A DNA stretch of 39,877 nt from positions 1 through 39,877 of the forward strand of contig VBKG01000303.1 of assembly GCA_005879585.1 (NCBI GenBank), read 5' to 3'. The notes beneath the pieces were generated by a model. That model was not told the DNA's origin and ran no database searches. It saw only the letters and a list, made by a program, of their open reading frames with translations. Below are positions 9,764-21,215 of the stretch, one piece after another. Each line of letters opens with the position of its first letter. The stretch's first letter is position 1. The position numbers were made by a program, and so were the translations under genes. This DNA comes from Deltaproteobacteria bacterium. GTDB lineage: Bacteria > Desulfobacterota > Binatia > DP-6.

Positions 9764-15319
<5,556 letters not shown>

Positions 15320-15405
15320 GTGGACGTCGCCGCGCACGGCGTGCGCGGTTTGGGAGACTGTCGAACCCGCGAGTATACCGGGCTTGGACGGTCGCGAAAG
15401 GCCGC

Positions 15406-16584
15406 TCACCGAGCCGGCGCGACGACGACCGTGAGGCCCGACGGCGCGAGGCGGCCGGGGGCGCTCGGCGCGGCGCCATAGCCGATCATCTGGCCGTCGG
15501 CGACCACGGCGCCCGGTCCGACGAGCGCACGGCGGACGAGGGCGCCGCGGCCGATGCGACAGCCCTCGAGCAGCACGCTGTCCTCGACCTCCGCGCCGCT
15601 CTCCACGAGGACCGCGTGGCCGAGGACGGAGCTAACGACCACGCCGCCGCAGATCATGGAGCCTTCGCACACGAGGGAGTTGAGCGCCTGGCCCGCGCGT
15701 CCGGCGGGATCCGCGACCACCTTGGCGGGTGCGAGGCCGGTGGCGCGAGCGCGCACCGGCCATGCCGGATTGTAGAGGTCGAGCCGGGGCCGCGGCGTGC
15801 AGAGGTTCATCTGCGCGTCGTAGTACGCCTCGAGGCTGAACGGCTCGTGCCAGTAGGCCCCGTGCGACGCGCCGGGAACGGGTCCGTCGAGGACGTCGTG
15901 CGCCACCACGCGGAACCGCTCCGCGAGCGTCGTGACGAAGCCCGCGTCGTCGGGCGGCGCGTCGGCGGCGAGCGTGGCGAGCACGGCCGGAAGCGCGGCG
16001 GCGCGGACGATGAAGTCGCCCCCCCAGGCGACGTCGAGGTCCGTGTGCGCCGACGCCGCGCCAGCGGGGCGCGCAGCCCCGAGGACCCGACGACGCGGGC
16101 CGAGGCGCAGGATGGTACGATCCGAGCCGTCGATGGCGGCGCCGGGGACCGCGACGAGCGTCACATCCGCACGGAGCGCGCGGTGTGCCACGGCAAGCGG
16201 CCGGAGGTCGACCTGCAGGATGTGGTCGGCGCCGAGTACCACGACCGCGTCCCGCTCGCCCGCGGCGACGAGGTCCCAACAGGTACGGAGCGCGTCGATC
16301 CTGCGCTGACCCGGCGACGCGGCGACCGAGAGCGAGCGCACGACGTGCGGCGGGCGCGCGCCGCTGCTGCGCCAGGCCACGTGGGCGGACACGGTCGTGT
16401 CCGTTTCCGGCGCCACGACGTACGTGTCGTGGATCCCCGAGTTGCCGAGGGTGGCGAGCGCGAAATCGATGAAGCGGTATTTCCCTGCGAACGGCGTGAG
16501 CGCCGCCTCGCCCGGCGAGACGAGAGGATCGAGGCTGGCGCCGCCGCCCCCCGCCACCACCACTCCCAACAGCCGTCCGGCCAT
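15406..16584 (-). CDS. GlgC-like (ADP-glucose pyrophosphorylase family) protein, probably non-catalytic
   Basis: A 392-residue protein with the two-domain plan of ADP-glucose pyrophosphorylase: an N-terminal nucleotidyltransferase fold and a C-terminal left-handed beta helix ([20 protein letters not shown], then [18 protein letters not shown]). Clear family marks are AGGGG at 11-15, [18 protein letters not shown] at 34-51, GADHILQVD, and [18 protein letters not shown]. Key catalytic positions differ. The Arg of GxGxRL is Ser17, the Lys of RAKPAV is Ala27, the EKP motif is missing, and WxDVG is WHEPF. This resembles regulatory partners such as GlgD or the plant large subunit. A GGAGGGAGG precedes the ATG at 16584. 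It lies 20 bases after the DnaA-like gene, so the two are probably co-transcribed. A role modulating glycogen synthesis is inference. Confidence 0.78.
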
Positions 16585-16604: not shown

Positions 16605-17873
16605 TCAGGGCGTGTCGTCGACGAGTCGGCGCTCGATCTCTGCGACGAGCGCCCTGAGCTCCCGGTCCATCTCGATCTTCTTTCCGACCGCGCGGCACGC
16701 ATTGCGCACGGTCGTGTAGTTGCAACCGAACTCGCGGGCGAGCTGCGCGGCGGATTGCCGGCAGAGCTTCAACGCGAGGTACATCGCGACGTGGCGCGGC
16801 AGGACGACGATCGCACGGCGGCTGTTGCCGCGCAGCCCACGCGGCGGGAGGCGGAACGCTCGCGCCGTCACCGCGATGATGCGCTCGACGGTGGGCGGCA
16901 CGTCGGGTGTCCGCCGCAACGGCGGCAGCACTTCGAGGGCCAGCGCCGCGTCGATGTCACGGCCGCGCAGGCGCGCGTGGGCGAGCAGGCTGCGCAGCGC
17001 GCCCTCGAGCCGGCGCACGTTCCCCGAAACGGTCGCCGCCAGCCGCGTGGCGAGTCCTGCTTCGAGCGCAAGCCCGAGGGCGCGCGCCTTGGAATGCACC
17101 AGGCGCAGGCAGAGGCTCGGCTCCGGCGGCGCGATGCCCGCGATCACGCCGCTCACGAACTCGTCGCGAACTCGCGCGGCCAGTCCCGCGACGTCCCCCG
17201 GTGCCCGATCGGACGTGAGCGCCAGGATGCGGCCCTCCTTCGCCCAGGCGACGAGGCCGTCCATCAGGTGCTCCTGCATCCGCTCCTGACCGGCGAGCGA
17301 GTGGACGTCGTCGAGCAGGAGGGCACCGAGCACGCGCAGCTCGCGCCAGAAGACCACGTGTCGGTCGTTGCAGATGGCGCCGACGAGGCCTTCGATGAAG
17401 CGCGCCGCCGGCAGGCAGGCGACGGCCAGTCGGCGCGCGTCGAGCTCGTGCGCGATGGCATGCAGGAGATGCGTCTTGCCGACGCCGCCCGGGCCATGGA
17501 GGAAGAGTGGCGCCGTGGTGTGCCGCGCGGCGACGGCGCGCGCCGCGGCGAAGGCCCGCTCGTTGCTGTCGCCGACCACGAACGTCTGAAACGTATGATC
17601 GGGAAGCGGCGGCGTGGTGCGGATCGGCAGCGGCGCGGGCACCGCCGGGAGATCGACACGAACCGTGCATCGCCGCCCGGCGACCGCGGCAACGGCTTGG
17701 GCAATGACATCCGCGAAGTGCCGCCCCACCAGCTCGCGGGTCAACCGGTCGGGCGCCTCGAGCATGACGTCGTCGTCCACCCACGTACAGCGCAGCGGTG
17801 CGATCCACGCGGCATAGTTCTGCTCGCCGATTCGGGTGCGCAGGCTCTCGCAGGCCTGCGCCCACATCGTCAT
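16605..17873 (-). CDS. Divergent DnaA-like AAA+ ATPase
   Basis: A 422-residue protein with the domain order of the replication initiator DnaA. The N-terminal domain I is at 1-75 (MTMWAQACESLRTRIGEQNY). A short linker follows, then the AAA+ domain (FQTFVVGDSNERAFAAARAV; Walker A GPGGVGKTH at 127-135; Walker B LLLDDVHSLAG at 185-195; sensor 1 TSDR at 220; sensor 2 NVRRLEGAL near 285) and a C-terminal helix-turn-helix domain (RHVAMYLALKL). Two hallmarks are changed. The arginine finger (E. coli Arg285, LKSRF) is Glu238 (VRDEF), and the box-recognition motif GGRDHTTV reads GCNYTTV. Oligomerisation on ATP and box specificity are therefore probably altered. I chose ATG 17873 because domain I starts there; the frame stays open upstream. 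It may be a paralogue rather than the main initiator. Confidence 0.82.
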   Translation of the reverse strand: MTMWAQACESLRTRIGEQNYAAWIAPLRCTWVDDDVMLEAPDRLTRELVGRHFADVIAQAVAAVAGRRCTVRVDLPAVPAPLPIRTTPPLPDHTFQTFVVGDSNERAFAAARAVAARHTTAPLFLHGPGGVGKTHLLHAIAHELDARRLAVACLPAARFIEGLVGAICNDRHVVFWRELRVLGALLLDDVHSLAGQERMQEHLMDGLVAWAKEGRILALTSDRAPGDVAGLAARVRDEFVSGVIAGIAPPEPSLCLRLVHSKARALGLALEAGLATRLAATVSGNVRRLEGALRSLLAHARLRGRDIDAALALEVLPPLRRTPDVPPTVERIIAVTARAFRLPPRGLRGNSRRAIVVLPRHVAMYLALKLCRQSAAQLAREFGCNYTTVRNACRAVGKKIEMDRELRALVAEIERRLVDDTP

Positions 17874-18145
17874 GGCGTCCGCCGGCCCCGGCGCACTCCT
17901 CATCGGCGGCGACGTCCACAGCTGTGGAAAAGGCGCGCATCGCTTCGGGAACACGTCGCTTTCAGCTTCGAGCTGGCGACGCCACTGCGCGATCGTGCCG
18001 TCGGATACACCCCGGCGGCGCCACCAATCCTTGCAAACATGTCGTTCATCGAAGGAGATCCGGCTGCGCCGGGACGTTTCGCGGAGCTCGGTCGGCCCGG
18101 GGCGGGACGACCGCCCGCGACCTTTAATCCAACCGCAATGGAATG
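17874..18145. other. Upstream region of the DnaA-like gene
   Basis: Counting the terminator described separately, about 315 bases separate the DnaA-like gene from the membrane-protein gene upstream. The DnaA-like frame remains open here and would encode a stretch with RGVSDGTIAQWRRQLEAE, but there is no credible start before 17903, so I treat it as leader or promoter DNA. It holds the DnaA-box-like palindrome. I see no confident -10/-35 pair. Confidence 0.5.
17914..17931 (-). promoter_or_regulatory. Palindromic DnaA-box-like site
   Basis: A 14-base perfect palindrome (TCCACAGCTGTGGA) lies about 40 bases upstream of the DnaA-like start. Read on the minus strand it gives TTTTCCACA, close to the DnaA-box consensus TTATNCACA. 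dnaA genes are often autoregulated by such boxes, so control by DnaA is plausible. Binding itself cannot be shown from sequence. Confidence 0.5.
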
Positions 18146-18185
18146 ACAAGAAGAAAAACACGGGACGCGACCGATCGGTCGCGTC
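18146..18185 (-). terminator. Intrinsic terminator of the GH57/DUF4912 operon
   Basis: A 22-base perfect palindrome at 18164-18185 (GACGCGACCGA and its complement) begins three bases after the stop codon of the 181-residue membrane protein on the minus strand. It is followed within six bases by TTTTTCTTCTT. A GC-rich stem plus a T-run is the classic Rho-independent terminator. It separates the upstream minus-strand operon from the DnaA-like gene. Confidence 0.85.
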
Positions 18186-18188
18186 GAC

Positions 18189-18734
18189 TCACTGGTACGC
18201 GACTTTGCGGCCGGAGAGCAGCTGGAGGTCGGCGACGAGCTCGCGAACGGCCGCGCGGCTGGCGCGCGCGTTCCGATGCAGCTCGCGCTCGAGCTGGAGG
18301 CGCCGCGCGTCGCGCAGCGGCCGGGTCTGTAGCTGCAGGTACGCGCGCTGCATCTCGCGCCGTCGTTCGAGCAGGCGGTCGACCTTGGCGAGCGCGAGGA
18401 GTCGCACGCCGTGCTGCGGGAGCTCGTCCGCGACCGTCAGCAAGCGTGAGAGGAGCGCGGTGTGGTGACGAGCGATGAGTTCCGGCAGCCGCGGATCGGC
18501 ACGCACCGTGATCAGGCAGAAGGCCGCCTCGAGCTCGTTCAGCGCGGCCGGCAGGTGCTCCGTCTTCAGACGGGCTTCCGCGCGCGCGGCGCGCGCGAGG
18601 CAGCGCCGGAAGCGCGCGCGCTCGAATCCTCCCATGGCTGGTGCGACGAGCGGTCGGGCAAGCAGCGCAATCAGGCCGACGACCAGCGCGACGGCCACGG
18701 GCAGCAGCACGAGCGCGACGAGGAGGGTGGACAT
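18189..18734 (-). CDS. Single-pass membrane protein, unknown
   Basis: A 181-residue protein I do not recognise. Residues 2-30 form a long hydrophobic segment (LLVALVLLPVAVALVVGLIA) that anchors it in the inner membrane. The rest is soluble and strongly helical, rich in Arg, Leu and Ala (RRCLARAARAEARLKTEHLP, then ERRREMQRAYLQLQ), suggesting a helical bundle or coiled coil facing the cytoplasm. The ATG at 18734 puts the membrane segment at the N-terminus; a TTG at 18758 is possible. It lies downstream of the GH57 branching enzyme on the same strand (66 bases) and ends at a strong terminator, so it is probably the last gene of that operon. No link to glucan metabolism can be read from the protein itself. 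Confidence 0.72.
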   Translation of the reverse strand: MSTLLVALVLLPVAVALVVGLIALLARPLVAPAMGGFERARFRRCLARAARAEARLKTEHLPAALNELEAAFCLITVRADPRLPELIARHHTALLSRLLTVADELPQHGVRLLALAKVDRLLERRREMQRAYLQLQTRPLRDARRLQLERELHRNARASRAAVRELVADLQLLSGRKVAYQ

Positions 18735-18800: not shown

Positions 18801-20378
18801 TCAGAGCAGAACGCGGTAGTCGAGCGCCGGGAAGAGGTTGTCGGTGTCCTCGAGCGCGGCGAGCCGCAGCTCGTCGATGGACCCTTGCTCCACCTCCGCG
18901 CACAGCCGCTGACAGCGCAGCAGATGATCCTTGGTGCGCCGCACCGCGTACTCCACTGTGGTGTCGCGCGACATCATGAACGCCCAGTCGCTCGCCTGCG
19001 CCAGGAGCAGCTCGCGCAGCGCCTGCGTGAGGACGCGTCGTGTCCGTTCGTCGGCGCTCGGATAGCGCCGGCAGAGCGCGTGCAGCCGGTCGGCGGCGGC
19101 GTGCAGATGACGGTAGATCCAATCGTTCGAGCCGGAGAGCCAGACCTCGTTGTACCCCTTCCATCCCCACGTCGAGGTCGCGGGCGTCGCGCGCTGGATC
19201 GTCGGGTGGCGGGCGAGGTCGTCGCCCGGCGTCACCGCCTCGAGATCGGGCGTCTCGGCGAGCCTCCGGAACACCATCTCGAGCCACCACGGTCCTTCGA
19301 ACCACCAGTGGCCGAAGAGCTCCGCGTCGTAGGGGCAGACCACGATGGGCGGACGCTCCATCTGGCGCGCGAGCCACGCGACCTGCCCGAGGCGCGTCTC
19401 GACGAAGTGGTCGGCATGCTCCTGCACGCGGCTCCGGGCGCGCTCCGGGTCGTAGGGCTCCTTCTGGTCGGTCTTGCCGGTGATGCGATGGTATTTGAGA
19501 CCCGTGTGGATGCGCTGGCCCGTGGGCGGGAGGTACGGGCGGACGTAGTCGTAGTCGAGGTCGAAGCCGATATCGCGATAGAAGTCGCGGTACCAGAAAT
19601 CGCCGGGGTATCCTTCGTCGGCGCTCCACACCTGCTTGGAGCTGTCGGGATCGCGGCCGAAGGCCGCCACGCCGGATTCGCACGCGATCGGTGCGTAGAC
19701 GCCGTAGACCGGCCGCGGCGTCGCGTGGGCGATGCCGTGCGTGTCGACGAAGAAGTACCGGAAGCCCGCCCGTGCGAGATCGGCGTCGAGCCCCGGTTCG
19801 TAGGCGCATTCGGGAAGCCAGAACCCCTCGGCGGAGCGCCCGAAGAACCGGCGATACTCCGCGGCCGCGACCTCCACCTGCGCCCGCACGACGGCGGGGT
19901 TCACCGACAGCAGCGGCAGAAAGCCGTGCGTCGCCCCGCACGTGATGACGTCGACCAGTCCGCGCTCCTGGTAGGTGCGGAAAGCGGCGACGAGGTCCTG
20001 CTGCCACTCGTCGAGAAAGACGGCGCGCACGCGGTAGAATCGCGCGAGGTAGAACTCGGCGACGCGATGGAAGCGCGCGTCGCCGCGCGTGCGCCGCTCC
20101 TCCTTCTCCGCGAGCTCGACGAGCCGGTCGAGGTGGCGCAGGTAGCGCGCGCGCAACAGCCGGTCGGAGAGCATGCCGAGCAACGGCGGGCTGATCGAGA
20201 TGGTCAGGCGGCAGGGGACGTGGTCGCGGTCGAGCGCCTCGAGGACTTCGAGCAACGGAACGTACGTCTCCGTGACGGCTTCGTAGAACCAGCGCTCCTC
20301 GAGGAAGTCCTCGTGCTCCGGGTGGCGCACGAAGGGGAGGTGCGCGTGCAGGACGAAGGCGAGGCTTCCGCGCGCCAT
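18801..20378 (-). CDS. GH57 1,4-alpha-glucan branching enzyme
   Basis: A 525-residue glycoside hydrolase family 57 protein with a C-terminal DUF1957-type helical domain, the layout of bacterial and archaeal GH57 branching enzymes. These make alpha-1,6 branches in glycogen, in the cytoplasm. The family start FVLHAHLPFVRHPE is at residues 8-21. The nucleophile Glu lies in GFWLPECAYEPG near residue 187 and the acid Asp in CPYDAELFGHWWFEG near 349, matching the positions in characterised enzymes. Also seen: GATHGFLPLL, STWGWKGYNEVWL and the aromatic-rich SDWAFMMSRDT. It follows the DUF4912 gene by 21 bases. Amylopullulanase-type activity is the main alternative, but length and domains favour branching. 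A catalytic GlgA is not in the window. Confidence 0.92.
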   Translation of the reverse strand: MARGSLAFVLHAHLPFVRHPEHEDFLEERWFYEAVTETYVPLLEVLEALDRDHVPCRLTISISPPLLGMLSDRLLRARYLRHLDRLVELAEKEERRTRGDARFHRVAEFYLARFYRVRAVFLDEWQQDLVAAFRTYQERGLVDVITCGATHGFLPLLSVNPAVVRAQVEVAAAEYRRFFGRSAEGFWLPECAYEPGLDADLARAGFRYFFVDTHGIAHATPRPVYGVYAPIACESGVAAFGRDPDSSKQVWSADEGYPGDFWYRDFYRDIGFDLDYDYVRPYLPPTGQRIHTGLKYHRITGKTDQKEPYDPERARSRVQEHADHFVETRLGQVAWLARQMERPPIVVCPYDAELFGHWWFEGPWWLEMVFRRLAETPDLEAVTPGDDLARHPTIQRATPATSTWGWKGYNEVWLSGSNDWIYRHLHAAADRLHALCRRYPSADERTRRVLTQALRELLLAQASDWAFMMSRDTTVEYAVRRTKDHLLRCQRLCAEVEQGSIDELRLAALEDTDNLFPALDYRVLL

Positions 20379-20399: not shown

Positions 20400-21215
20400 T
20401 CAGCGGACCGGCGGCCGCGGCGCGTAGAGGTCGCTGGAGCCCGCCAACGGCGCCGGGGAGCGGCCGTCGCGTCCGGCATCGGGGTGCCCGGCGTCCTCCC
20501 AGCTTTGGCCCCCCGCCACGGGGAGGCCGTGCGCCGGCAGGGTGACCCAGCGAACGGTGGTGTCGGGCGATGGCTGCGGTCGCGACGTCGTCACCGTGTT
20601 CGAGCGCAGGATCGAGACGAACCGTCCTGCCGGTGTCCGGACGCCCAGCTCCACGCAGTACGCCGCCGCCGGCTTCCACACGTTGATGTACCACCTCTCC
20701 GTTCCGGGCGTCGGCTCGATGTCGAACGAAGACCAGGCGTTGGCGCCGGTGAAGTCAATGAACGTGACGTCGTGGACGCGTAGGACCTCGACTGCGCCCT
20801 CGGCCTCCTCCCCGAGGCTCCGCAGCGCGTGGATCCGACTCGTCGGCGTCAGCTCCCAGTACGCGAAGAGCCACCACGGGTCGCGCGCGAGCAGGACGAG
20901 CCGGTCATGACCGTAGCCGCGCGGCAGGTCGCCGGGCTCGCGGTCGACCAGCCCGACCGGAGCCGTGCTCTGCGCCGCGGGTGCAGCGGGGCGCTCGCCG
21001 GCGAGGTAGTACTTGGCCTCCCGGGCCTGCTCCTCGGGCCGCGGCGCGGGTGGGGTGGCGGCACGAGCGGCGGGATGAGGACGACGCGGGGAGGCGAGAC
21101 CGAAGACGCGCACGACCGGCTCCGCCTGCGCCCGGATCCGCATCGCCAGGCTGCACGCGGAGCCGAACCACTCGCCGACGAGGCTCCAACCGACCCCCAC
21201 TGCCCTGGAGATCAT
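20400..21215 (-). CDS. DUF4912 domain protein
   Basis: A 271-residue protein carrying a DUF4912 domain: LPRGYGHDRLVLLARDPWWL then FAYWELTP, followed by a beta-rich section (VEVLRVHDVTFIDFTGANAW, WYINVWKPAAAYCVELGVR, RFVSILRSNTV). This domain resembles a carbohydrate-binding beta sandwich and commonly sits next to GH57 glucan-branching enzymes, as here (21 bases apart). The N-terminal ~85 residues (SRAVGVGWSLVGEWFGSACS) and the C-terminal Pro/Gly-rich tail look disordered or linker-like. ATG 21215 was chosen because the Arg-rich extension to 21305 is unlike a protein start; no good ribosome-binding site is seen for either. A role in binding or presenting glucan to the branching enzyme is inference from context. 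Confidence 0.8.
   Translation of the reverse strand: MISRAVGVGWSLVGEWFGSACSLAMRIRAQAEPVVRVFGLASPRRPHPAARAATPPAPRPEEQAREAKYYLAGERPAAPAAQSTAPVGLVDREPGDLPRGYGHDRLVLLARDPWWLFAYWELTPTSRIHALRSLGEEAEGAVEVLRVHDVTFIDFTGANAWSSFDIEPTPGTERWYINVWKPAAAYCVELGVRTPAGRFVSILRSNTVTTSRPQPSPDTTVRWVTLPAHGLPVAGGQSWEDAGHPDAGRDGRSPAPLAGSSDLYAPRPPVR

Follow-up and report, generated by a model that had tools for sequence, protein, structure and literature searches.

The genome of a Binatia soil bacterium (assembly GCA_005879585.1) encodes, besides two other DnaA proteins, a DnaA paralogue that retains the ATP site of the initiator and has lost its arginine finger, and this third gene, dnaA3, is under purifying selection. 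Judging from sequence, we tentatively propose that DnaA3 could serve as an ATP-binding accessory of, or brake on, the canonical DnaA1, working through protein contacts and controlled through a DnaA-box dyad upstream of its gene, a reading that we consider plausible rather than probable; an initiator role is very unlikely on the same grounds. The host genome is a fragmented metagenome assembly of 625 contigs, in which the canonical dnaA1 sits in the order dnaA1-dnaN-gyrB-gyrA (dnaN, gyrB, and gyrA were named by reading the open reading frame sequences and their order) and dnaA2 lies elsewhere. The dnaA3 gene is located in the window analyzed here (the whole stretch of 39,877 nucleotides, positions 1 to 39,877 of contig VBKG01000303.1) and is not beside dnaN, which adjoins dnaA1 only. 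The original prediction had described the protein as a paralogue and suggested looking for a canonical dnaA next to dnaN. With dnaA1 adjoining dnaN-gyrB-gyrA and dnaA2 also present, DnaA3 is clearly a paralogue, and the possibility that it represents the only DnaA of the genome was rejected.

The open reading frame first reported for dnaA3 spans positions 17873 to 16605 of the minus strand and encodes 422 aa from an ATG at 17873. An in-frame ATG located ten to twelve codons 5' of this start is common to three congeners, and the ATG at 17903 is therefore the likelier start (Table 1). The product contains DnaA_N, Bac_DnaA (AAA+), and Bac_DnaA_C (helix-turn-helix, HTH) domains in DnaA order, all above the Pfam cut-offs. 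Its ATP-site residues are intact, comprising K133 (Walker A), D188/D189 (Walker B), and D222 (sensor 1), as are the box VII arginine (R234) and sensor 2 (R287); by alignment, their E. coli counterparts are K178, D235/D236, D269, R281, and R334. Against the DnaA equivalog model TIGR00362, DnaA3 scored 284.4 bits, below the cut-off of 343.9 that was exceeded by both DnaA1 (471 bits) and DnaA2 (423 bits). A structure model, also suggested at the outset, predicted all domains to be folded (mean pLDDT 87.5, confident over domains I, III, and IV, HTH ~90), and its best structural matches were DnaA structures. DnaA3 resembles the DnaA initiator (TIGR00362; E. coli, B. subtilis 8btg) in its four domains, Walker A/B motifs, sensors, box VII arginine, and HTH fold, with 33–36% identity to B. 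subtilis DnaA structures, but differs from it in carrying Glu in place of R285, in the loss of R432, H434, and L290, in scoring below the equivalog cut-off, and in its location away from dnaN.

Table 1. Features of the dnaA3 locus, ordered by position in the window.
Feature	Position	Strand	Basis or remark
Double-length UvrA, neighbor	9764..15409	-	
GlgC-like nucleotidyltransferase with hexapeptide domain, neighbor	15406..16584	-	
dnaA3, third DnaA paralogue	16605..17903	-	432 aa from ATG 17903
Codons TGC AAC TAC, Cys384-Asn385-Tyr386 replacing Arg-Asp-His of the DnaA-box reading motif	16716..16724	-	alignment
Codon GAG encoding Glu238, aligned with E. coli Arg285 (arginine finger)	17160..17162	-	alignment
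Walker B, LLLDD (aa 185-189)	17307..17321	-	sequence
Walker A, GPGGVGKT (aa 127-134)	17472..17495	-	K invariant in five orthologues
DnaA-box dyad TCCACAGCTGTGGA (pair of box cores, head to head, 2 bp apart)	17915..17928	.	conservation
Conserved leader element TTTTTCTTCTTGTCATTCCATTGCGGTTGGATTAAAGGTCGC, possible promoter	18118..18158	-	alignment of three congeners
Terminator-like hairpin followed by T-run, ends upstream gene	18164..18185	-	
181-aa protein of no Pfam family, upstream of dnaA3	18189..18734	-	conserved
GH57 1,4-alpha-glucan branching enzyme, neighbor	18801..20378	-	
DUF4912 protein, neighbor	20400..21200	-	

Alignment with E. coli DnaA bore out the initial claim that Glu238 takes the place of Arg285, a position occupied by arginine in 146/146 DnaA proteins outside the dnaA3 clade (sampled within the class and on 80 contigs from across the bacteria). 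In E. coli, functional contact between DnaA molecules requires R285, L290, and R227, and ATP-dependent initiation complexes require the arginine finger (PMC5742627). The AID-2 leucine corresponding to L290 is gone in all five dnaA3 orthologues, R285 in three, and R227 (AID-1) in two. The AAA+ core had been described as intact, which stands for the Walker motifs and sensors but not for the core at large, as each dnaA3 protein departs at 15/50 near-invariant sites (≥95% conserved among 69 DnaAs from the class), compared with at most three in any other DnaA tested. ATP binding without normal filament formation, as originally suggested, is supported at the level of sequence by the retained ATP site and the loss of both R285 and L290. 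Loss of Arg245 (ssDNA-binding B motif) was considered as proof of a non-initiator and rejected: the residue is lost in four of the five orthologues, yet the present DnaA3 keeps it, and the site is variable among DnaAs from outside the class.

The reported loss of the box-reading residues in domain IV was likewise recovered by alignment, with R432, D433, and H434 corresponding to C384, N385, and Y386; R399, T435, and T436 are kept. Tyrosine at the position of H434 was found in none of the surveyed DnaAs outside the dnaA3 clade. The change at D433 was rejected as a striking one, since Asn is ordinary there (31/145 other DnaAs). Given these frequencies at positions 285 and 434, it is the loss of the finger together with R432 and H434 that is exceptional.

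Orthologues of dnaA3 occupy one conserved slot in 5/7 genomes of the host's family, to which clear orthologues are confined, and the gene is absent from two other genera of the family. In a midpoint-rooted DnaA phylogeny, an analysis that the original prediction had proposed, the five orthologues formed one fully supported clade on a long branch. DnaA3 was 72% and 71% identical to its orthologues in two congeners, whereas those of two additional genera shared 55% and 50% of its residues. All five copies are open and full-length, and keep Walker A/B and both sensors. The two distant orthologues retain R285 and RDHTT; in the three congeners, residue 285 is Gly, Gly, and Glu, and the reading helix is RNHTT, RNPAT, and CNYTT, respectively. 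The simplest account would be a single loss of the finger at the root of the genus, followed by species-specific drift of the reading helix. Because the distant orthologues retain these residues, the clade as a whole may differ in role from that proposed for the genus.

The gene order around dnaA3 is conserved as DUF4912 – GH57 branching enzyme – 181-aa protein – dnaA3 – GlgC-like – double UvrA, and in genomes without dnaA3 the same order closes up around a clean site. The existence of two relatives without dnaA3 indicates that the gene is dispensable in the family. Within the family, the 181-aa protein always adjoins GH57, even where dnaA3 is missing. The GlgC-like protein matches the nucleotidyltransferase model over residues 7-147 only, and is perhaps a non-catalytic subunit; it evolves fast and is absent from two members of the family. 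A strict functional link between dnaA3 and the GlgC-like gene was rejected, as each was found without the other in one genome. The UvrA protein (~1,850-1,880 aa) consists of two UvrA copies fused in one frame, whose halves match each other, with ~45% identity in relatives. A second dnaA (dnaA2) is often present in several of the families that make up the class (L036, L038, L041, L044, L047, L049, and many other class loci), and in the host family of dnaA3 its product has lost the box VII arginine (Arg281, replaced by T, A, or K) and kept the arginine finger and RDH. One congener (G002) encodes a further DnaA-like AAA+ protein without an HTH (L043, 1407-2993, minus strand; G002:C91), which adjoins another AAA+ ATPase gene. 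We also considered a phage or plasmid origin of dnaA3 and rejected it, since phages, plasmids, and viral contigs yielded only ordinary DnaAs at about 30-33%, none of them closer.

Between congeners, dN/dS was 0.21–0.26 for dnaA3, 0.23–0.32 for dnaA2, and 0.11 for dnaA1 (one pair); at these values dnaA3 is not decaying freely, and with no stop or frameshift in any of the five copies we rejected its interpretation as a pseudogene. A related reading holds that dnaA3 is a redundant paralogue heading to loss; the mild constraint would then be a remnant, and the missing residues a sign of relaxed selection. This would account for the stepwise loss of R285 and the reading residues with an outcome that differs per species, for the absence of the gene from two family genomes with clean sites, and for the many changes at near-invariant positions. 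We nevertheless regard it as unlikely, as the frames are undamaged, the dN/dS is close to that of dnaA2, and both the ATP-site residues and the upstream dyad have been kept.

By domain, dnaA3 gave dN/dS values of 0.31–0.36 for domain IV, against 0.19–0.24 for domain I and about 0.2 for domain III; the corresponding domain IV values were about 0.15 in dnaA2, where it is the most constrained domain, and 0.13 in dnaA1. The domain IV/III ratios of dnaA3 (1.4–1.6) are borderline, with bootstrap intervals reaching about 1; the ratio was larger still in one dnaA1 pair, owing to a domain III that has hardly changed. That domain IV is the least constrained part of dnaA3 is thus a lean, not proof. The excess speaks against recent fixation of a new DNA specificity and in favor of a function that rests on domains I and III.

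The leader of dnaA3 contains the perfect palindrome TCCACAGCTGTGGA 11 bp before the likely start, and conservation in the leader is highest over the 21 bp of this dyad (20/21 columns invariant). With at most one mismatch allowed, six of the family genomes have one to three copies of TCCACAGCTGTGGA each and the seventh has no copy; almost all copies immediately precede a dnaA gene, namely dnaA3 (five genomes), dnaA1 (two genomes), or dnaA2 (two genomes). Across the class, 41/63 dnaA genes are preceded by the dyad within 150 bp of the start (≤2 mismatches; loci L009-L033, L035-L053, and L136-L174), often in the full form TTATCCACA-NN-TGTGGATAA, compared with 0.02 expected in shuffles and 1 with the reversed pattern. 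On the strength of this enrichment we read the dyad as DnaA boxes, and by its placement it appears to be a shared control element of dnaA genes. A new operator for DnaA3 was rejected, the palindrome being a normal DnaA-box dyad widespread before dnaA genes. Its likely reader would be DnaA1 or DnaA2, since the box has been kept and the reading residues of DnaA3 have not. Farther upstream, the leader element TTTTTCTTCTTGTCATTCCATTGCGGTTGGATTAAAGGTCGC showed no match to the sigma-70 consensus. The terminator-like hairpin that ends the upstream gene suggests that dnaA3 starts its own transcription unit.

The dyad and the domain IV data also bear on the proposal of a different DNA target, which was not supported. 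A role as a dedicated transcription factor that reads a new target, e.g. its own locus (GH57, GlgC-like, uvrA), would fit a neighborhood conserved in five genomes, an HTH fold that is intact and well predicted with R399, T435, and T436 in place, and the known activity of DnaA as a regulator. However, we consider this reading rather improbable. The three congeners have three different motifs and no new one in common, which leaves a new target unsupported, and domain IV is the least constrained part of the protein. The only conserved palindrome is the ordinary DnaA-box dyad, also found at dnaA1 and dnaA2, and the GH57–181-aa–uvrA order is unchanged in a relative without dnaA3.

Among the three roles originally listed (transcription factor, inhibitor, or alternative initiator), inhibitor or accessory is the best candidate, whereas alternative initiator is the one to be doubted most. 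Initiation at another replicon or under special conditions would be compatible with the presence of all DnaA domains and with the retention of R285 and RDHTT in two family members, but the finger is gone in the host genus of dnaA3, no closer relative was found on plasmids, phages, or viral contigs, and no DnaA-box cluster was found near dnaA3, the dyad being the only such site in the whole window; such a role is very improbable. Assembly or alignment error, or a sole DnaA with tolerated residues, is scarcely credible even for a fragmented metagenome assembly, given two other dnaA genes, one of them beside dnaN, and two independent congener assemblies that also lack R285.

We therefore return to DnaA3 as an accessory of, or brake on, DnaA1. 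The protein would bind ATP, and could neither give an arginine finger to a neighbor nor grip DnaA boxes firmly. Its action on the canonical DnaA1 would rely on domain I and on its ATP face, where the finger of DnaA1 could still be accepted. DnaA3 would then most likely be a chain-ending or sequestering subunit restraining filament growth at oriC, past which an ATP-DnaA filament could not be extended. DnaA1 (or DnaA2) on the upstream dyad would set dnaA3 expression, creating a feedback loop.

Hda is a DnaA-derived regulator without an HTH that binds the sliding clamp and inactivates DnaA, using its arginine finger to trigger ATP hydrolysis by DnaA. DnaA3 is similar to Hda (TIGR03420) as a DnaA-derived AAA+ protein for which regulation of DnaA is proposed to occur by AAA+ contact and not by DNA reading, but differs in keeping domain I and the HTH domain IV and in carrying Glu238 at the finger position. 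Its score against the Hda model was 76.7 bits, relative to a cut-off of 194.8. No gene exceeded the Hda cut-off in any of the seven family genomes, and two weak extra matches inspected in the host genome were read as RarA and RuvB. A more specific version of the proposal is that a DnaA copy was converted to a dedicated trans-acting restraint, which would receive rather than give the finger contact, end filaments, and provide a dyad-controlled brake where no Hda was found; we hold this to be conceivable but doubtful.

Extra dnaA copies are already known, with three in 'Ca. Kuenenia stuttgartiensis' (PMC7709395) and two in 3.7% of 1,067 genomes (PMC3080875). The genome studied here resembles such multi-dnaA genomes in having three dnaA genes with only one beside dnaN and gyrB, a comparison made for Kuenenia at the level of gene copies. 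In a literature search of limited extent, we found no DnaA paralogue kept under selection without the finger. The dyad also has precedents. E. coli DnaA represses its own gene via a DnaA box (dnaA2p; PMC5835720), which is similar in placing a box before dnaA, whereas here a head-to-head pair 2 bp apart precedes three paralogues. E. coli DnaA favors paired boxes 2-3 bp apart, modeled in tandem (PMC11317965), in contrast to the head-to-head arrangement of the dnaA3 dyad.

A finger-less paralogue maintained by selection would provide a natural case in which ATP binding is uncoupled from assembly that depends on the finger. The orthologue series, ranging from near-canonical proteins to the present DnaA3, illustrates the order in which an initiator can shed functions under selection. 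The occurrence of the dyad before all three dnaA genes suggests that they are joined in one shared feedback circuit.
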